A DNA stretch of 64,000 nucleotides from Brugia malayi. Lineage: Eukaryota > Nematoda > Chromadorea > Rhabditida > Onchocercidae. Below the pieces are notes generated by a model. It saw only the letters and a list, made by a program, of their open reading frames with translations, did no database searches and was not told where the DNA came from. The stretch is taken from the NCBI RefSeq assembly GCF_000002995.4, contig NW_025062476.1, positions 5,321,001 to 5,385,000 on the forward strand, given 5' to 3'. Below, piece by piece: positions 21,690 through 64,000 of this stretch (positions within the stretch are counted from its first letter, which is position 1; each line of letters starts with the position of its first letter). The translations under genes were made by a program, and so were the position numbers.

Positions 21690-21708
21690 ATTCTCTAAAA
21701 ATATTTTG

Positions 21709-22560
21709 GTGCCACGAGCCGGGAATGTCAACCATTATAATCGAAGCGCACAAGCGGTAAAAGAAAAATTGCAATTTCTTCTCAAAGATGTCGAAGGGAT
21801 GGATCTAACACCATCGGATCAAATGCTGACCAGAAAAGAAACCTGTCAGCAGCGAGGCCAGAAAAAGAATTATTGAGGAGTAATTAATGCGTCTGGAGCT
21901 ATATCTACTAGCAAAATCGCTCATGCAAGATGGGCAAAATATATCCAACATGTCCCGACTTCATTAAAAAAAAGAGCAAGAAGGAGAAAATATACACAAT
22001 TGGTCGAGGACAAAAAAGGTATTTTAAACGTAATAAATGAAGATAAAGAAATCAGTATAACTTTAACTATGTACAAAATAACTCTGAATTAGTAATCGCA
22101 GGCCTCAAACAAGACAAAACAAAGGATGAATCAACTGATCAAGACGATTCAACCCAATTGACATATTATCCAACGGTAAATTTACCCCAACTATTGCTCA
22201 AATTCAATGGCAATTCAAAACCATGGAGAGGATTTTGAAATAGCTTTAAAGCAGCAGTTCATCTCCAAAATATTCCAGATATCCAAAAATTAAATTACTT
22301 GATGTCTTATCTCAAAGGAAATGCTCTACTAGCCGTAATAGTAAGAGGCTATCATATCGTACCGGAGAATTATGATGTTATAAGAAAGTTTTTTAACAAA
22401 AGTTGATAAATCTTTCATTACAAAGAAACAGCTGTATAATAAATTGTATTCGATCAAAAAGAATAATCGAGAATGAAAATCACTAAAAGTCAAGCTCTGT
22501 CGAGAACAAGCTCGAAATTCCACTAGAAATAATCTTTGTACCGAACAATCGAATTTAGCA
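21709..22560 (+). pseudogene. Decayed BEL/Pao gag fragment (third copy)
   Basis: It starts with the same primer-binding-site-like tggtgccacgagccgggaa as the two larger elements, followed by ATGTCAACC and a gag-like frame that is soon closed by TAA. Further on, parts of the conserved gag region are readable (a PTVNLPQL-like block, then a former Trp codon now TGA, and NYLMSYLKGNALLA-like residues), with several stops and frameshifts. It ends near 22560 where the next LTR begins. Nothing beyond gag is present. An old, inactive remnant. Confidence 0.75.
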
Positions 22561-22580
22561 AAAGGTCAAATTTAAATCAA

Positions 22581-23002
22581 TGTATTTATATTTAAGCAAA
22601 TCATGTTAATCATTTATTGTAAGTTTTATTGTAATTCAAATTCCTTAATGACTCATAGATGGTAATGTGTTAACAAATTCCCATGCTAATCTGTCATATT
22701 ATCTAATGCACATCTGTTCCAATCCTTATTTGTTATCTAATTCCGTTTACAAAAACTATCTTTCCCATAGCCTTCTTGCTAGCTTCCATTTTATCAATCG
22801 CTTTATCTCTCCACCCTCAAATCATCCTATATAAGGGCAATTACCACTCAACTGGGCTGTCTTCCCAGTCTCCCCGTTGCTTAGCTCATCCTCCTCACTA
22901 AATTGTCCTACTACTGATTGCTTGTTTGGGTTTAATTACCCAAGATTGAGCACTCCACTCAATTGTGCAAGTAAACCAACCCAATCCAATCCATTCACAA
23001 CA
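22581..23002 (+). repeat. Probable 5' LTR of BEL element A (boundaries approximate)
   Basis: Between the decayed copy and the primer binding site. It would begin tgtatttata and end ttcacaaca, giving TGT...ACA termini, six bases before the PBS. It contains a TATA-like ctatataaggg at 22829 and a pyrimidine-rich downstream part with the SL1-like sequence. No second copy of this LTR occurs in the window, so the left boundary is a guess. Confidence 0.5.
22929..22950 (+). other. SL1 spliced-leader-like sequence inside the LTR
   Basis: A 22-base stretch starting ggtttaattacccaag and ending attgag equals nematode SL1 except for A instead of T at position 17. It is not followed by the GTAA donor that follows the leader in SL RNA genes; the next bases are cactcc. 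It therefore looks like a mature leader joined to other sequence, not an SL RNA gene. It lies about 100 bases downstream of the TATA-like motif and about 60 bases before the primer binding site. Confidence 0.85.
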
Positions 23003-23008
23003 AATTTA

Positions 23009-23027
23009 TGGTGCCACGAGCCGGGAA
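23009..23027 (+). other. Primer binding site of BEL element A
   Basis: tggtgccacgagccgggaa lies six bases after the probable LTR end. Its complement ends in CCA, as expected for a tRNA 3' end. The same sequence occurs at 21709 and, inverted, at 30937-30955. The tRNA species was not identified. Confidence 0.8.
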
Positions 23028-23028
23028 C

Positions 23029-26000
23029 ATGTCATCCATCATCATCAGAACCGCAGACCAAACAAAACGAAGATTGTGTGAAGTCCTCAACGAAATCAAG
23101 CGTCTGAACTTGGATTCGGTCGACCAAATGACAACAACCGACGAAACAATCCGTCTTCATCAGGAACGGAGAAGGATCACCCAAGAAAAAATCATGCATA
23201 TCCAAATATACATAGAGGCGTTGGAATCGGTCAATACAGAGTGGAAACAATTCATCCAGCAGATTTCAGTCTCAACCAAAAGAAAAGAAGAAGAAGATCG
23301 ATACCTTCAGATAAACGACGATGAATCAGGTATTACCAACTTAATTTTACAAGCAAAACAAACTGTAGTCATTTTAAAAATGTATCAAAATGATTCGGAG
23401 TTCATATTACAACGGCTAAATCAGTCTATGGTAAGGGAGGAAACAACTCAACCCAAGGAACCCACACAAGCGGGTAAATACCCTACAGTAAATCTCCCAC
23501 AACTACCACTGCCCACATTCAGTGGGAATCCAAGACGCTGGAGGGAATTTTGGAATAGCTTTGATACAGCTATACATCAACAAGCAATTCCCGATATCCA
23601 TAAACTAAATTATCTCATCACATGTCTCAAAGGAGACGCCCTCCAAGCTATCAGAGGTTATGACATAACTCCGGAGAATTACAGTGTCGTAAGAAATGTC
23701 CTCGTCGAAAAGTTTGGGCAGCCTTACGCCATCAAACGAGCCTTGTTCACCGAATTATACTCCATCAGAAAGAACGATAGAGAGTGGAAAGCAACGCTTG
23801 AGGCCATTGAGCGAACACTTCGACAATTGGAGGCCATCGGTGAGAATTTAGAGCAGTCCGGTATCGAAATAGCTGTGGAAGGGAAATTGCCAACCTGGAT
23901 CCTAGAACAGGTTTACAGAAGAAAGAGGCAGGAATCGTGGTCTGTCACCAAACTCCGAAACTTCCTCACGGAGCTTGCATCTGTGAACGAAGAAGTAGTA
24001 CAAAGCCAGTCCCTATGGTTTAAAGGGAATAAGGAGAATCAATCTCCAATAAAAGGCAAGCCAAGACCACGACACAATCCCAATGAGACTTCAGCCTTAA
24101 CAACCTCTGTTCCGGAGAAACCCATCATCAAAGCCCTATCAAGACCTTGTGCACTATGCAACAAGAATCACTGGGATGAAGAGTGCCAGATTTATCCCAC
24201 TCTCAAACAAAGGCTGGAACGTCTGAAGAAACTAAACGCTTGCCTCAACTGCTTCAAGATCGGACATATGGCAGCCAGATGCAAAAACAAGAAACGGAAT
24301 TGCTTCCACTGCAAGGGTCAGCACAATTCCGCGCTGTGCCCTAACAAATTCAAGGAAATGCCCAATAAACCAGAGGATCCAGACTCCACTACCACGACAA
24401 ATATAATAGTCGAAAAAGAGAAGAAACGTGACAAGCGCATCCTACTCTTATGCAAGCAGATAAATGTGTTCAACCCAACTAATCCAAATACTCAACAAAG
24501 GGCTTTAGCCCTATTCGACGTTGGATCACAATTATCCTTTGTTTCAAAGAACTTAGCCAAACAACTAATGCTTAACGAAACAGATGAAGGGAAATTAAAC
24601 ATCGCTTCATTCGGCAAAAAGGACCCGAACACGCACCTTACAACCAGAATTGAAATAGGGATAAAAATCGGAAAGGACCGTACAGTGTTGCTCGAAGCGA
24701 ACACCGTGGACTATTTAACAAACAAACTACAAGTAGTCAACTTAAGTGAAAGCGACATACGATCCCTCAAAGGAAGTCCAACAATTGATTTCCACAGTGA
24801 ATGGAAGCAACCGGATATATTAATAGGAGCCAACCACTTCTTTCAATTCATCAATTTCGACAAAGCAGAGAATCTGCAATCGGGATTCACACTGCTCCAC
24901 ACTAAAGTGGGCCCGATCCTGGCTGGGTCTGGCTATACAAAGAAAATTTCTCCCAATTCACGAATGTCCTCACAAATAGTTTACGCCGCTAACACGATCA
25001 ACGTTCCAGATTTAGATCAATTCTGGAAACTGGAACTAATAGGCATACAAGACAAACCCGAGATCAATGACGATGAAGAAGCCTTAAAACAATTTAAGCA
25101 AACGATTAGAAAATCCGATGGACGATACCAGGTCGCATGGCCATGGAAAGACACCAGTTCCAAATTAAGCGACAATTTCGAATTATGTCTCGGACGCTTA
25201 CAGTCGTTAATCAAGCGACTTCACCGCAACCAACATCTACTTACCACATACAATGAAACAATCAATGAACAGTTAAGATCCAATGTCATCGAAAGGGTAA
25301 GTCATTTCACAAACCATCAAGGTATTATCCATTACTTGCCCCATCATGAAGTGGTAAAATCAGATAACACCACGACAAAGGTCAGAATAGTTTATGACGC
25401 TTCCGCTCACCTCAGAGGCAGGAAAAGCTTAAACGATGTCTTGTATCGAGGCCCTATCACCCTTCCCGATTTAGCTGGAATATTAATTCGACTAAGAACA
25501 ATGAAAATCATCATAATAGCTGACGTCGAAAAAGCCTTCCTACAATTAGAGTTGCTGCCAACGGAACGGGACTGCACACGCTTTCTATGGGTAAAAGATA
25601 TTCAGAAACAGGTGGACAGAGATAATTTAATATGCTATCTATTCAAAAGGGTTCCCTTTGGAGTGATATCGTCACCCTTTTTATTATCAGCAACTCTCAA
25701 TTATCACTTGGAACATTATGAGACTGAAACTGCACGTGAAATCAAGAAGAATCTCTACGTCGACAATATCATCTTATCAGCGAGCCATGAAAAGGAAGCC
25801 TTGAATAAATATGAAGAAACAAAATCAATTTTCAAGGATGCGTCAATGAACGTGCGAGAATTCCTCTCAAATAACCAGACATTCAATGAGCAACTACCCA
25901 AGTCGGACCGAGCACGAATGAGTCAAATAAAGAAAATATTAGGGATTAAGTGGAATCCACACAAGGATCATATCCAAATAACACTAAATCCATGGACCGA

Positions 26001-26919
26001 ACAAACAACAACAAAAAGAACTATTCTACGGTTCATCGCCTCACAATACGACCCACTTGGATTCCTAGTACCACTGATAGTACCGTTCAAGATATTTCTC
26101 CAAGAACTCTGGAGAAAAAACATACATTGGGATCAACCCCTCGACAATCAATTGATTGAAATCTGGAACAATCTTGTGGTAGAATGCCCAACTCATATCA
26201 AGGAAATCCCGCGATTCACAATCGATTTATCACAACAAATTACCTTTCATGTTTTCACCGATGCATCTACAGTGGCATATGCTGCAGTAGTATACGCCCA
26301 TCAAAATACGCATACGTCGTTACTCTTTGCTAAATCATGAATAGCACCTATTAAAGGAATGACGATACCAAAGCTAGAATTACTAGCTATTCTCATCGGT
26401 GTACGCGCAGCTCAGTTTGTCATCAAACAAATGGAATTAGAAAATCCAAAGGTAGTGGTATGGTCGGACTCTCGCTGTGCACTACATTGGATACAAAACA
26501 ATTCTCGCCTCCTACCAAAATTTATACAGAATCGTGTGGAAGAAATACAAATGGCGAAATTCGCATATCGGTATATCTCAAGCGAACACAATCCAGCAGA
26601 CATTGCTACCAGAGGAACCATTCCGACTCGTCTAATAAGTTACGAGCCTTGGTGGAGCGGGCCCACATGGATCAATGGTAATGAACCGAATTGGCCTCAT
26701 TGGGAATACGACGTTCCACAAGAAGAGGATAACGAAGAAGATAAGAATATAGTAGCAACAACAACCACAGAAGAAATCATCAATACAAATCGAATCAATC
26801 TCCTGGAGGCAAAACGATTCAGTAAATGGAACGTCAAACTGAACGTCAAGCTCAACGTCAAACTTCATATTAACTCAAGGAGAAATTCTCCTCTACGATG
26901 GAAGAGGGTTAGTCTCTAA
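23029..26919 (+). pseudogene. BEL/Pao gag-pol, element A: open through RT, one nonsense codon in RNase H, integrase absent
   Basis: A single frame runs from 23008 to the TGA at 26338-26340 (1110 codons) and resumes in the same frame to 26919. The TGA sits in a KS-stop-IAP context where an Arg codon is expected, so it is a simple nonsense change. Order: coiled gag N-terminus (start at 23029, or ATG 23008 overlapping the PBS); conserved gag block PTVNLPQLPLPTF; three zinc knuckles including CLNCFKIGHMAARC; aspartic-protease-like LFDVGSQLSF; reverse transcriptase with ADVEKAFLQLEL and YVDN in the active-site box; RNase H with HVFTDAST and WSDSRCALHW. After RFSKW, where the zinc-binding integrase region should begin, there is a triplicated 12-mer and then unrelated sequence. 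The element cannot integrate by itself. GC content is visibly higher than in the env part and in element B. Confidence 0.92.
26830..26865 (+). repeat. Three tandem 12-mers at the pol/env junction
   Basis: aacgtcaaactg, aacgtcaagctc and aacgtcaaactt lie head to tail exactly where family A pol sequence ends and AT-rich env-like sequence begins. Confidence 0.9.
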
Positions 26920-28012: not shown

Positions 28013-28016
28013 GGAG

Positions 28017-28159
28017 TGTCGCGAATTATAATTTCGCAAAAACTTCTAACTAATTTCATACTACCATAAATCATCTCTTCTTTTCGTTGTAAACAATTCC
28101 AATTCTTTACACATATACTTTTTCTGTAAAATTGAAATTAGCTTTCATTTTAATCTTTT
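28017..28159 (+). repeat. 5' 143 bp of a family B LTR, plus orientation, truncated
   Basis: Begins TGTCGCGAATTATAATTTCG directly after tttgggag, as a 3' LTR would. It is nearly identical to the inverted sequence at 31257-31399; the clear difference is actacc versus actatc. The match stops at the shared tttt where the minus-strand element begins. Confidence 0.88.
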
Positions 28160-30935
28160 CGTTCTTTCATATTCATGTAAGGCCTCTTCTGTTCCATTAG
28201 CTGATATAATAACGTTGTCTACGTATAAGTTCTTTCTTATCTCCCATGCCAATTCACTACCATGATTTTCTAGGTGGTAATTTAATGTTGCTGCTAATAA
28301 GAAGGGTGAAGATATTATTCCAAAAGGAACTCTCTTAAATCGGTAACATTTTATATTTTCATTGGTTAGTTCTTTATTAATATCATCTAACCAAAGAAAA
28401 CGTGTACAATTTCTTTCCTCATTTTGTAGTTCTAGTTGTAAAAATGCCTTTTCGATATCAGCGGTTATTACTATTTTCATCATCCGAAAACGTAATATTA
28501 CTCCAACTAAATCCGGTAACATTACTGGACCTCGATATAGTACTTCATTTAAGCTTTTAAAACCTTTGTGATGTGCTGAGGCATCATATACTATTCTTAA
28601 TTTAGTTGTTGATTTACTAGGAGTTAATACTTCATGATGTGGTAAGTAATGAATAACGCCTACCTCATCCTTTGGAGGTACTTCTTCAATTATACCTGAA
28701 TGTAGTTGATCCATAAGTATTTGATGATATGAATGGAGATTTGAATTATGTTGTAGGCGGTTGATCAAATTCTTCAATCGTCCCAGGCATAATCCATCAT
28801 TATTGCTTAATTTTTGTTTGGAGTCCTTCCATGGCCAACAAACCTGATATCTTCCAGCTTGCTTGATGATGGTCCGTTTGAAATGCTTTAAAGCTTGATC
28901 ATCATCATCATCTTGAGGTGATTCTTGGATACCAATCGTCTCTAATTTCCAAAAATTTTCTAGCTCCGAGTTAATATTGGCGTTTGTAGAATATACTACT
29001 TCTTTAGGATATAATTCGTTCTTGCAAAGCTTCTTAATATCTCCACTTCCAACAATCATAGGACCAACTTTTGATTGAACCAACATATGCCGTGATTTCA
29101 ATTCCTTGATTTCTTGTAGACTAATAAATTTGAAAAAATAGTCAGCTCCAATCAATACATCAGGTTTTTTCCAGTAATTTGTTAAATTTTGAATTTGAAA
29201 TTCATTTGATGTCTCCACTACCTGCAATTCGTTCGTTAGATAATCAATTATATTTGCTTGTAGTGGTATGATTTCGCTTTCGGTAGTTAGCACATTTAGT
29301 TGTATGCGAGCAGTGGGACATGATTTCGGTTCTTTCATACCAAATGGAGCTATTCTCATAATTTGAGTTTCTGTTTCGGTTAACTTTAATTGACGTGATA
29401 ATTTTTTGGAGATGAAGGAGAGTTGCGATCCAATATCAAATAATGCAAGGGCATTTTGTTGTAGTTGAGGTTGTGATGGATTAAAAACCTTTATCTCCTT
29501 ACATAAAAGTAAAGTTTCCTTTGTCTGTTTGGATCGAGTTGTTAATGTCGAGTTGTAGAGGGAAGTTGAACAATCCTTTCGTTTCGAAGGTTCAATTCTT
29601 TCTTGCTCTTCATTTCTTTGAGACATTGTATTGTTTAAAGAAAGTGAATTCCTTTTATTACATAAAGCACTATTATGTGAGCTTTTGCAATAAAAACATT
29701 GTTTTTTGACATTACAATTCTGTCCTTTGTGACTGTCTCTAAGATTGAGACGACTAAGTCGAGCATTGAGAGTCGTGTAGTTCACGCAATCGCTGATTGC
29801 AGAATACACATGGTCGTCTTTTCGTTGTTGTAGTTTTTGAAGCATTTTGATTATCCTTTATTGTCGACAGTGCTGAAGTTCCTCCGGGATTGTATCGTTG
29901 TTTTTGTTCCTGTTTGGTAGTTGTAGATTTAATATTGAGTTGAGTGAGTGAATGTTGACAGTTTCTAATCTGTTCATTCACATTAACTAAACTTGTTAAA
30001 AAGTTTCTTAGTTTGAGAATTGACCAAGGCATGTCCTTCTTCTTATGTTTATATATTTTATGTAATATCCATAATGGCAACTTGCTCTCGATCAAGATTT
30101 TAATATTTGAATGCTCAAGGCTTTCTCCTAGAGCTTCTAACTGGCGCAGTACTCGTTCTATATTTTCAATTGTTCCAATCCATTCTCTTTCATTTCGTTT
30201 AATTGATTAGAGTTCGTTGTATAGTAATGTTGTTACTATTGAGTGATCGCCATATTTTTCATTGAGCAGTTTTCTGATGACTTCATAATTCTCTGGAGCT
30301 ATATCATATCCAGATATTGCTTGTAGAGCCTTTCCTTTAAGACATGAGTACATGTAATTCAATTTTTGTATTTCTGGAATCGCTTGTGTGTGGACTGCTG
30401 CGTTAAAACTGCTCCAAAATTGTCGCCATTGTCTAGGGTCTCCATCGAAAGTAGGGAGCGATAAATGAGGAAGATTTACATTAATATTTGAAGAAGGAGT
30501 AAATTTTGCTTCTTCTTTTGTTTGTTTGTTCGTCAACTCCTTTGAGAGTTGTTTTAAGTTTTGGTCGACTTCATCCTTGTGCATTGCCAGTGTTATTACA
30601 GCTTCCTTTCCTTCGTGTAATAATTGAAATATTCCTTAGTCACCTTCTGTTACTGTTTTGTATTTTTCTTCCTCTTCTTCTCTTCTTTTCATCGTGACGA
30701 TTTGTTGAGTATATGTGAACCATTTATCGTTGATAGATTCAAGCGTAGTTACGCATAATTGGATTCTTCGAAGTTTATCTTCTAACACTCTTTTTCTTAT
30801 CACATAAAAATCTTCTTTTTCTTCTATTGTCATACTTGGATCTGGAAATTTGATCTCCAGTTGATTTACTTCTTTAAGAAGACTGACTAACCTTTCCTTT
30901 GCCGGTTGAAAGCTCGCGATAATGTGGCTTGACAT
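28160..30935 (-). pseudogene. BEL/Pao gag-pol, element B, decayed and truncated in RT
   Basis: Reads leftward from ATG 30935 (MSSHIIASFQ), just after the PBS. Gag is broken by a TGA/TAA near 30638, by a stop near 30207 and by frame changes near 29760-29850. The conserved block NVNLPHLSLPTF, one zinc knuckle (CFYCKSSHNSALC) and remnants of others remain. A long frame (29845-28145) holds LFDIGSQLSF and RT motifs ADIEKAFLQLEL and YVDN. The sequence stops shortly after YVDN and abuts the plus-oriented LTR fragment, so the rest of RT, RNase H, integrase and env are missing. It is similar to but clearly diverged from element A, hence a separate subfamily. It is more AT-rich than element A. Confidence 0.9.
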
Positions 30936-30964: not shown

Positions 30965-31399
30965 TGTCATGAAAGGTTTGTCTGGTTGATATTCGAATAG
31001 TTGCAATATAGTAGGAAGATTAATAAACCTTTATTTTTCGCAAACGTAGTATTAATAAACAGAGCAATAAAATTAAGAGAGAAAAAATTTATATTAAAGA
31101 AGAAGATCGGAAGAATTGATATTGGTTAACAGAGTAGTAGTCGACAGTGATGATAATGATTTACCTTTTTTTGTTAGAATTGAATTTATATGAGTGAGGA
31201 TTGGGCGTGTCTAGGATAAAAATCATATGTGTAAAGAATTGAAAGGGTTTACAACAAAAAGATTAAAATGAAAGCTAATTTCAATTTTACAGAAAAAGTA
31301 TATGTGTAAAGAATTGGAATTGTTTACAACGAAAAGAAGAGATGATTTATGATAGTATGAAATTAGTTAGAAGTTTTTGCGAAATTATAATTCGCGACA
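30965..31399 (-). repeat. 5' LTR of BEL element B (435 bp)
   Basis: Read leftward it starts TGTCGCGAATT and ends TTTCATGACA, so the termini are TGTC...GACA. It contains a TATA-like CTCATATAAATTC and an AATAAAGG near the end. The first 143 bases are repeated in inverted orientation at 28017-28159. No SL1-like sequence is present here, unlike LTR A. Confidence 0.88.
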
Positions 31400-32330
31400 C
31401 AATTCATATACTATGAGCATCTATCATGTATTGTCTATTACAACTCATAGTAGCCATTTATCATAATGTCTGGACAAACCATTGTACTCTCTTTCGTAAT
31501 ATCCATTCAATTCATTGTGATATCCATTTTTAAACTTATTGTTAAAGTTACTTACTATCATTTTTTGTACAAAAATGTCTTATTATAAACCACTCCCACA
31601 TTTTAACACATATAATGTAAGATAATTGCTACATAAAGATCACCATTGTTAAAAGATTTAGTATATGTGTAATTTATTGCCAAGGACTGACGATTCCACT
31701 TTCAATTGTTTTCTATCAACGTTTTGTCCTATTACTTTGCTAATAAAGAACTTGGATTATATTTCTGTTACCTCACGCATTTACATTTACATCCAAGACA
31801 ATCTCCCTGCGATCAAACACCTCTCCCAATATTATTAATTAAACAATCAAAACCTTCCACGTCAACATACAAGAATTGGAAGATTTACTTGATTGTAGAA
31901 TAAGCACTTCAACTGATGTAGTAACAAAGCTGTTACGTTGGCCGTGGGATCAAGCCGTGGATTTAATCGCTCACTCAAATTATCAAATAAAATATTTATT
32001 GAAACCACTCCTACTTACAATATGTAAATGTGTTTTTCTTTATATATATGAATAAAATTATTGCTTCAGACTGGAGATGTAACTCCTTTTAATTTAACCA
32101 TTATTTCCTGTTCGTTTTACTTTAACCATCACTTGTTGTCCCTTTTTTTATTTTAAAAATCACACATGGTCCTTTATTCTTGCTAATAAATATTTTCAAG
32201 TATTTCTGTGTTGTTTGACACTGCTGTCAACTGCATCTGAACGAATTCCTTCAGGAGCAAAGAATAAGAAAAAAAAAAAATCATTCTTCACCAAATATTT
32301 GACTTGCCAAACCTTAAAAAAAAGAAAATT
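31400..32330. other. Possible diverged LTR-type sequence, otherwise no gene
   Basis: Contains ttcaggagcaaagaataag near 32250, resembling ttcaggatcaaagaataaag near 21600 upstream of the decayed gag copy; later blocks are also vaguely alike. This suggests an old LTR fragment. No coding exon was found. Confidence 0.3.
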
Positions 32331-61000: not shown

Positions 61001-63258
61001 TTAATTTTGAAAGTTAGTTTTGAAATGAAACAATGAACAGATCTTTCTTATGGCTATGATCGTCCCAAATAGTAGATCTACGATAGATTTAAGGATTAAG
61101 CATAATTTAAAGTATTTCTAATTGTGAATAATTATCAGTTAAATTTACTTTTTCCATAGTTTCAATTACTGAAGCCAAGAAATCATCATTTTTTGTGGCT
61201 GCATAATATTCGTAAACCATTGGTATGAATAGTGGTGGTTGTGATCGTCGTAAATAGTAGATTCGTCCACCATTTGGTATAAAACCAAAAGTATTTATTA
61301 GATAGGCAAAATTTTCAATCATTCGACGAGTTGTATTTTGCATACCTAAAAATGAAATAGATATCAAGCGCACTTTATATATTTAATTCTAGATAATAAA
61401 TTTTATCTAAATTATAAAATTTATGATTCTAAACTTCATCATTGACACAGTAGACATTTAGATCAGAAGTAGTATATAAAATATTAAGTTAAGCATTATT
61501 TCTAATTTCATCTTGTTGAATTTATATTCTACAAAAATATGAATTCTCTTTCGTAGTTTTTCTAAAAGAAAAAATTGAAGTATTGAATGGAGAAGTTTAC
61601 TATTAGAAATTAAAATCTTTTAAAAGCAACATTGTAACACGTCTCACCAATAGTTTTTCAGTTTATTGATAATCTTGATTATCAGCTAACCTGATGCCAG
61701 AAGTCCTTTTATAATCCAATAACCATCCCAATAGTAATATTCACGGAAACGTCCACCTGGCACAATGAATTCATTCGGTACATAAATTAGCGAATGTCTT
61801 TGTGGTTGTTCTTTAACCTAACAATAAAAATTTGATGAATTTGTTTAAGTGTAAATTGATTGTAATCTTAAATTAAATGTTATATCATAATAATGAAAAC
61901 CTTTGACAAAAAAGTATAACTTAGGTTGAAAAAAAATTCAAAGTTTAAAAATTTTTCTTTCAGCCATATTAATTATTAAACCAAATAATCTTAGGGTTGA
62001 AATATTTACAACTTTTGTAATTATTCCATCTATCGATATTATTATTATTCGAAAGAAGAAATAACCATAGAACGTTTTTATATAATTTACAAAATAACAT
62101 CCTTTAAAATTTCCTATTATTAATTATCTATCAAATATTAGCAATTGTTAGATTTGTAAAAGTTTCAAAGTAATTCTTGAAATTTATGTAAAAGATGAGA
62201 ATTGTTAAAAGAAGAAGATATTGATCATTTTCAGTTTGATTTTTTTTCCTTGATTTCTGAATTTCAATTCATTATGAAAGATTGTGAAAGTCATTGGAAT
62301 GAAAAACTTTTATAAAAAAAATAACTAACTTCTTTTTTTACAGTTCTGCATAAATCTTTCCATATGTAATTAATTTGAAGTGCAAACTTTCGTAAAGCAT
62401 TATTTTCGATAGTAAGCAATCGTTCAGGTTCCTCTTTCCAGTCTGACAATTCACACCTGTGAGATAATTGATATTTTGATTGGGAAGAAAAGAAGAAAAA
62501 AATTCTTTCTATTTTGAACAGAAAAAATTTTTTTAAGTCGTGAAATTGTTTTTAAATTTAAAAAAAAATGCAAATTAAAAATGCAAAGGAAGGAGACAAA
62601 AAAAAGTTCTTTCTAATTAATTAATTATTTAAGAATACTTTTCAACATTATATGGTAAAAAAAAAAAAAAAAGGAAAGAATAAAGTATTTACTCATTAAG
62701 CTCTTCTCCTTCAGCGCCAAAGTTATCTTCAATGAATTGTTTCACATTTTCACGATCGTCTTCTGTGATTGCTTTTGTAAAACGTTGTTGAAAATTAGCA
62801 ATTACCTCATTTGGATCTTTTTTTAATGGCTTATCAACAAATGTTTTTGAATCCTTATATAAGCCAAGCATCATTACTACATGTAATATATCTCCTTGAC
62901 AATAAATTTCTGCTGCATCAGAATGATTTCTATCACATGCAAATTGTGGTATTTCAAATTCTGAACTTAAAATATCATTTTGATTCAAAATTTTTTCCTT
63001 TAATAACTCAGTTGAGATTATCGTATCATTATCATCAGCATTAATTGTTGTTTCAATTATTTTAAATTGATCAGGAAATATATTTGTTGTTGTTAATGTT
63101 ATCGTATCATTCTTTGTAATATTATTAGCTCGTCGTTTAATTCGTTTTACAATACAGTATTTGTCACAAAAGAATTTCTTCTCGTTATATGCACTATTAG
63201 CGATGAATAGTTGTTGGAGCAAAATGATATATGATATTAGGAACAATATTAAATACAT
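58054..63258 (-). CDS. Trehalase (GH37), secreted, probably GPI-anchored
   Basis: Hydrolyses trehalose to two glucose molecules outside the cell. Ten exons (63258-62693, 62456-62330, 61817-61691, 61345-61149, 60887-60790, 60207-59972, 59694-59430, 59197-59099, 58615-58471, 58248-58054) sum to 2055 nt, 684 residues, with every phase consistent. Signal peptide MYLILFLISYIILLQQLFI; then a ~100-residue basic/acidic extension before YCQGDILHVV. Catalytic-domain marks: signature 1 PGGRFREYYYWDGYW, IPNGGRIYYLRRSQPPL, ESGWDFSSRWF (expected acid Asp), signature 2 QWDFPNGWANVNH, WEKYDV (expected base Glu), DGFGWTNGVAL. The C-terminus has a hydrophobic run (SSVLLLALPLLLLA) as in GPI-anchor signals or a membrane anchor. 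Only a short hydrophilic tail follows. Nematodes carry several trehalase paralogs; which one this is cannot be said. Confidence 0.97.
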
Positions 63259-64000
63259 TTGATCTGAAAATTAATATTCAAAAAAAAAAAAATACTATTT
63301 GATCAAATTTTATCAAATATACGAGACATAGAAATTAAATAATATATATATATAATGACAAGATTATGTCATTATTTCATTACATCATTGATAAATGGAT
63401 CGATTATCTAAATGCATGATTTGACATAATTAGTAATGGGAATGTTTTCAATCAAAAATTTGTTTTTAATATGAAATGATCATTATAACAGTTATTAATA
63501 TTTAATATGAAATGATCATTATAACAGTTATTAATAGATGATTAATATTTGTAATATATCATAATGATAAGATTATTTCAATGCTTCATGAATTTTTCAT
63601 CAAAAACTAGAAAATAAGAAAGATTGCTAAGAAAGAAAAATTGATATAATAAATGAAAAGTAAATTAAAATTAAAAAAAAGTGAACAAACAAACAAAAAT
63701 TCGATGAGAATATACAATGATGGAGGATAAACTTTTTTTGGTAAGGTAAATAAAACAGTATGTAATGAATTTTTTCTCTTAAAATTTAATTCTGAATTTA
63801 GCATAATAGAGTTGTAAAAAAAGAAAGAGAAAATAATCTGAGCTATTTTGCCATATAATTTGAGTTTTAATTATAAAATATATGAATTGTGCATTTATTT
63901 ATAAAATTGGAATGAAATTAAAGCAATAAAATTTGTAAGAAAAAAAATTTTGATGTGAGTTTTTCAATCCATTGCCATAACTTTAGAGACTTATGGAATA
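63259..64000. promoter_or_regulatory. Upstream region of trehalase, AT-rich
   Basis: Probable trehalase promoter and 5' UTR. It holds a short (TA)n run about 63341-63354 and a 36-bp duplication. No exon was recognised. Confidence 0.4.
63465..63536. repeat. Perfect tandem duplication of 36 bp
   Basis: 63465-63500 and 63501-63536 are identical (unit starts tttaatatgaaatgatcatt). The unit contains the palindrome aatgatcatt. Confidence 0.92.

Follow-up and report, generated by a model that had tools for sequence, protein, structure and literature searches.

The 5′ long terminal repeat (LTR) of a BEL/Pao retrotransposon in Brugia malayi contains a 22-nt stretch that matches the nematode spliced leader SL1 at all but one base. 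We consider it probable that the element captured a host spliced leader through reverse transcription of trans-spliced genomic RNA, and that the stretch is the fossil of that leader, fixed in the R region. Capture fits best since the leader is present in both LTRs, lacks the donor of an SL RNA gene, lies downstream of a TATA box and recurs in other LTR families. The initial annotation had offered this explanation together with a second, that the element keeps the leader to gain SL-dependent cap and translation functions in every new RNA. The former remains the best reading; the latter finds no support in family A, to which this LTR belongs.

The leader and its retrotransposon

The leader-like 22-mer, GGTTTAATTACCCAAGATTGAG, occupies positions 22929..22950 on the + strand of the window, that is the whole 64 kb stretch of DNA analysed, and differs from SL1 solely by T17A. 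It is the only match to SL1 at three or fewer mismatches in the window, for which 100 shuffles gave a mean of 0.01 matches, a single shuffle having one. When LTR A was Markov-shuffled 1000 times and both strands searched, the best score was 17/22, reached in one shuffle only, and 1000 shuffled leaders attained a maximum of 16/22 against the + strand of the LTR. The bases following the leader are CAC, not the GTAATTG that follows the leader of a true SL RNA gene (L001), and the combination of 22-nt leader, GT donor and SL RNA remainder that marks such a gene is not present here. Searches of the window gave no Rfam matches at the gathering threshold and no tRNAs, and exact SL1 had no occurrence in IMG/VR viral contigs. 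The 21 identities, the missing donor and the low likelihood of chance similarity, all put forward from the letters of the window, are thereby confirmed.

Indeed, chance resemblance to SL1 is a reading to which we give next to no credence. Variation of the final six leader bases within family A would favour it, but the shuffled sequences already contradict it. Across the genome the exact first 16 bases followed by a base other than T at position 17 occur at 29 places, 25 with A and four with C; by their coordinates all of the former lie within LTR A copies found by similarity search, and the latter are LTRs of family S, described below. The reversed pattern, even with one mismatch allowed, occurs at one place in the genome.

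LTR A (TGTCGAGAA..TTCACAACA) spans 505 bp at 22498..23002 (+) and the leader starts at its position 432. A TATA box, TATATAA, is located 101 nt upstream of the leader (22828..22834, +), and a pyrimidine-rich tract, GATTGCTTGTTTG, lies directly 5′ of it (22916..22928, +). Given a transcription start approximately 30 nt downstream of the TATA box, as is the rule, the leader would be positioned where the outron of a trans-spliced RNA ends, and the tract may represent that place; there is no AG at the border between tract and leader. The primer binding site (PBS), TGGTGCCACGAGCCGGGAA, follows at 23009..23027 (+), with the earliest ATG 3′ of it at 23029. The gag-pol frame extends from stop to stop over 22975..26340 (+), the closing stop at 26340 falling inside the Peptidase_A17 match. 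One frame after the PBS holds DUF1759, DUF1758, RVT_1 and Peptidase_A17, which assigns the element to BEL/Pao. The window copy has the 5′ LTR only, no second LTR A copy being found within the window; TG..CA LTR pairs with 5-bp target duplications are seen in other copies. The presumed 5′ LTR is therefore genuine, a sequence repeated in the genome and not a gene fragment inserted once, and the leader does lie, as had been described, between a TATA-like box and the PBS.

Two neighbouring LTRs are without SL1. The LTR region upstream of the PBS of element B (21707..21725, +) gives a best SL1 match of 13/22, in agreement with the earlier remark that this related LTR lacks the leader, and a C-type BEL LTR at 30965..31399 (−) gives 12/22; shuffles of LTR A mostly score 12-14. 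Window positions 28016-28163 and 31253-31400 hold the beginning of a C-type LTR as two copies of 148 bp (99%) in inverted orientation. One of them lies immediately beyond the 3′ side of element A, and the element therefore looks rearranged. The start of Trehalase (PF01204) is matched weakly (E 1.5e-05) by an open frame at 62689-63270 (−).

Family A across the genome

The genome searched comprises 86.8 Mb in 139 contigs. A 501-bp LTR A query gave 44 matches (40 of the 44 candidates being scored), among them 23 near-full copies, every one of which keeps the leader. Bases 1-16 are exact in 22 of these 23, L030 carrying one change, and base 17 is unlike SL1 in all. The last six bases define two subfamilies, ATTGAG in nine copies and ATAAAG in 14. 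We infer an exact 22-mer as the ancestor of the family A leader. Degenerate pieces of LTR A are present in C92 (GGTTTAATTACCTCACCTCGAG).

There are seven candidate LTR pairs, and in five (L018/L026, L019/L029, L020/L028, L010/L015 and L033/L035) the 5-bp target duplications match and the leader is found in both LTRs. The four of these five that were aligned have 499-509 identical bases out of 507-511. For L023/L024 the 3′ flank reads N and 494/509 bases are identical. The pair L011/L025 (477/506 identical), considered as one insertion with discordant leaders, was rejected because the target duplications differ. The 5′ flank of L011 is that of L010 and the 3′ flank of L025 that of L029; contig C19 (L011/L025, C19:35043-41748) joins the ends of two insertion sites (L010/L015, C138:9479844-9487847; L019/L029, C138:13429347-13436087), by rearrangement or as an assembly effect. 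The solo LTRs L016 and L017 share the duplication CTAGG and have identical flanks, and are probably one locus present twice. Two checks had been proposed for the 22-mer, its presence in other copies of this LTR and in both LTRs of full-length copies, and both were answered in the affirmative.

Mean diversity per site among the 23 copies is 0.040 for the LTR, 0.0054 for leader bases 1-16, 0.166 for bases 17-22 and 0.049 for the whole 22-mer. Since 33% of 16-nt windows along LTR A are as little variable as leader bases 1-16, and bases 17-22 are fixed differently in each subfamily, retention for cap or translation functions is unsupported here. Judged by this variation the family A leader is a fossil, which varies and is inherited like the remainder of the LTR with no renewal in each cycle, and this speaks against its being replenished from host SL RNA in that family.

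SL1 in other LTR families

The genome contains 303 exact SL1 22-mers, in 212 of which the third following base is A. Ninety of the other 91 loci were fetched and they comprise 64 P- or R-type LTR ends, 16 S, seven Q and three others (L073 and L122, T-like, and L109, U). The P and R LTRs read TGTCGTGAAA..TTTCACGACA, 11 nt usually separating the end of SL1 from that of the LTR, and identical 5-bp duplications on both sides occur at 21 of the 90 loci, in P- or R-type LTRs. Six tandem P-type LTRs with exact SL1 and 2031-bp spacing are found at C136:10316015-10326170 (L067-L072). Searches by similarity gave 43 matches for S LTRs (40 of 82 candidates scored), 56 for T relatives (40 of 86) and 43 for U LTRs (20 of 20).

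The copies chosen to represent A, A2, P, T1, S and U, one for each, all have a TATA-like box 101-216 nt upstream of SL1. P has a further box at −35, and with the pattern used none was seen in the R and T2 representatives. The motif AATAAA stands just before SL1 in P and starts 9 nt past its end in S and T1. A shuffle test places SL1 in mutually unrelated pre-leader contexts, exact in the R/T/S group and in U, inexact in A. Pre-leader similarity exceeds that of shuffles for R-T1 (0/1000) and T1-S (0.001); no support emerged for A sharing its pre-leader origin with R, T1, T2 or S, the shuffle fraction being 0.07-0.74.

The U LTRs (L109 and L189-L202, for example at C139:8844372 and C138:4081610-4081790) represent a further BEL-like SL1 family, lying in one copy behind the DUF5641 end of a pol frame. 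SL1 is exact in L109 and L199; in L109 the distance from the LTR start to SL1 is 275 nt, and TATATA occurs at −207 and −216. Six of 14 further U copies read (L190, L192, L193, L195, L198 and L200) contain, at a distance of 47-57 nt, another SL1-like stretch, whose local score is at least 12, a level reached by 6/1000 shuffles of L199. Two separate captures were rejected since both stretches are preceded by GACAACAACGG-like bases, which suggests, as the simpler reading, that some 51 nt were duplicated in tandem.

Two further signs of repeated splicing were considered. The CTTTC joint of L108 was rejected as a separate splice because the presumed partner, L107, has GTTTC, and it is probably a point change. 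An extra TTTGAG is carried by one of the 64 P-/R-type ends, and follows SL1 in L042 (C4:36481, P) and L158 (C136:1012121-1012351, S). It would be the expected remnant had another leader been spliced to the AG within the first, with slippage as likely an origin; as proof of such a splice these duplications are weak, the presumed partner of L042, L043, being without TTTGAG.

The leader decays in these families also. In 37 S copies (out of the 43 matches, two being unfetched and the remainder excluded as repeats or fragments) the leader has 0.047 substitutions per site, compared with 0.083 over the 22 nt that precede it and 0.036 over the 22 nt that follow, and 12 leaders are exact. From 19 T copies fetched of 56 matches, with L176 excluded from both T sets, the corresponding values are 0.027, 0.084 and 0.014 in T3 (ten copies, five exact) and 0.071, 0.096 and 0.096 in T1 (nine copies, the one exact leader being that of the query itself). 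The rate for the leader is thus between or near the values for the flanks in S, T1 and T3, and the idea that it is kept for function gains no support from these rates. The majority base equals SL1 at 22/22 sites in each of the three, so the S and T founders probably carried exact SL1 that later decayed in the copies, with the caveat that S, R, P and U were found through an exact-SL1 search and the sample is biased towards exact founders. Mutated leaders are shared, T17C by four S copies (L129-L132) and TTATCC by four S copies. A search with P flanks that ignored the leader found 62 places (control, one), 54 without any listed change and five with changed leaders, namely a 14-nt deletion, a TTTGAG duplication, two 1-nt insertions and one substitution; at the borders there are two cases of an extra A on the left and one of C for G immediately after the leader.

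Certain LTR borders coincide with SL1. The seven Q LTRs are chimeras that combine a C-type first 34-35 nt, the P-type LTR 5′ end through SL1 and a C-type U5, which begins right after an AG. None of 15 aligned C-type LTR ends (14 fetched and that of the window) has SL1. C-type and Q LTRs were considered as a clean pair without and with SL1, which was rejected because Q is a chimera with P. Ahead of SL1, R (L048) and T3 (L187) are identical at 40/40 nt, and beyond it they diverge from the second base; six further T3 copies match R at 57-93% in the stretch before SL1. The Q, R and T3 borders suggest that SL1 was a crossover point between LTR families. Strand transfer between trans-spliced RNAs would give such borders, and so could microhomology (AGGTTT) or deletion.

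Origin of the leader and known systems

Under capture, an ancestral genomic RNA would have started near the TATA box and received SL1 by trans-splicing at a point not far 5′ of the PBS. Reverse transcription, primed by the tRNA, would copy U5 and next the leader, and at the first strand transfer the leader-bearing cDNA would join the 3′ R of an RNA, so that the leader became fixed between the outron remnant and U5. Once within R it would be propagated by normal LTR replication and need no new trans-splicing. Reverse transcription with strand transfer into R places the leader in both LTRs, which a joining outside the element would not. Family A would then be an old case, the other BEL/Pao-type LTR families in B. 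malayi being more recent or independent. Some observations count against capture. No AG acceptor, as the original splice would have required, can be seen at the border, base 17 departs from SL1 throughout the 23 family A copies, and the TATA-like boxes of P (the second, at −35), R and T2 (none by pattern) do not conform. In addition no leaderless relative occurs among the matches of the 501-bp genome search, so the pre-capture state of LTR A is unseen.

The leader might instead stem from an SL1-bearing host mRNA, or from SL RNA, to which reverse transcription switched template, with no splicing of the element's own RNA. This would likewise yield a mature leader without donor, but in family A the leader is followed by the element's own U5 and PBS with no host mRNA or SL RNA sequence, and we regard such a route as highly improbable. 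Selection for the stretch as a promoter, cap-function or translation element, whether its origin was a leader or convergence, also deserves consideration, given that in Ascaris SL RNA genes the SL sequence itself is a promoter element. The majority identity to SL1 in S, T1 and T3, where other parts differ, is in keeping with selection, with the caveat that S was found by exact-SL1 search, and so is the pre-leader similarity of R-T1 and T1-S beyond shuffles. We consider it improbable nonetheless, as family A displays no excess conservation of the leader and P has a changed leader at 5/62 exact-flank places against about two exact-SL1 P copies with changes in the flank words (L060 +, L114).

A different proposal is that SL1 works as R, the genomic RNA receiving SL1 at its 5′ end in each cycle and pairing at strand transfer with the SL1 of the 3′ LTR, so that the leader is renewed from the host and a naive element could take the U3 of another family. 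The Q chimeras with their joint at SL1, the R/T3 match that ends there, the AATAAA positions in P, S and T1 and the per-column majority in S, T1 and T3 (22/22) agree with this. It appears unlikely, because mutated leaders are common to several copies in A (ATTGAG, ATAAAG) and in S (T17C, TTATCC), leader decay within families is about equal to that of the flanks and the Q joint is also explicable by the shared 6-bp AGGTTT. The nematode splice acceptor consensus is TTTTCAG, and the TTTGAG/G and AATAAAG/G sites make poor acceptors. Moreover, the 8 kb genomic message of Cer1 in Caenorhabditis elegans is described as not trans-spliced at its SL1 site, which the spliced mRNA can be (PMC3315495). An extension of the proposal, which we hold to be doubtful, is that the host leader serves as a shared R repeat with leader-to-leader pairing at the first strand transfer. 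BEL/Pao families would renew the leader and exchange U3 promoters among themselves, the crossovers falling precisely at SL1 as at the Q, R and T3 borders, and family A would be a lineage fallen out of the cycle. Capture of a host leader followed by inheritance is the reading that we prefer.

Where exact SL1 near PAO elements is concerned, the central idea has been published before. Foster et al. (2020, PMC7181701) describe SL1 22-mers outside SL RNA genes beside PAO elements in B. malayi, which they occasionally flank on either side in one orientation, with 316 SL1 signatures in approximately 81 Mbp assembled, and they infer leader addition and integration. Their paper also counts 120 integral SL1 and names public SL1-primed reads of B. 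malayi (PRJNA525735). The window copy lies, like theirs, within 1 kb of a PAO element, but at 21/22 it is not the exact SL1 that they sought and that we find in other LTR families; their Nucmer search probably left family A uncounted, T17A leaving a 16-nt exact run. The passages of that paper dealing with SL1 neither place it inside the LTR nor account for its presence in both LTRs. Our analysis adds the place inside the LTR, the occurrence in both LTRs and in unrelated LTR contexts, the decay in copies and the borders exactly at SL1. No paper on SL1 inside LTRs was evident from titles and abstract openings among the matches listed for open-licence papers, which does not imply absence from print, and in a search there on Tas and SL1 the phrase Tas retrotransposon was absent among the matches listed.

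In one nematode the leader thus has a defined place between the TATA box and the PBS, is present in both LTRs of an element and occurs in unrelated LTR contexts, and trans-spliced genomic RNA as a template for reverse transcription becomes testable. There is also a warning for sequence reads, since those that derive from LTRs and contain SL1 may have it from the genome itself. Cer1 of C. elegans is similarly a nematode LTR retrotransposon with an mRNA able to receive SL1, but it is of the Gypsy/Ty3 class, SL1 is on the spliced mRNA and not the 8 kb message, and the account in PMC3315495 describes no SL1 in the Cer1 LTR. Relict leaders in dinoflagellates offer the other parallel, since in the hypothesis of Slamovits and Keeling, as cited in PMC3229502, a leader returns to the genome via cDNA and then decays. 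That case concerns host mRNAs, whereas in B. malayi it is an LTR retrotransposon that would have taken up the leader and multiplied it inside its LTRs.
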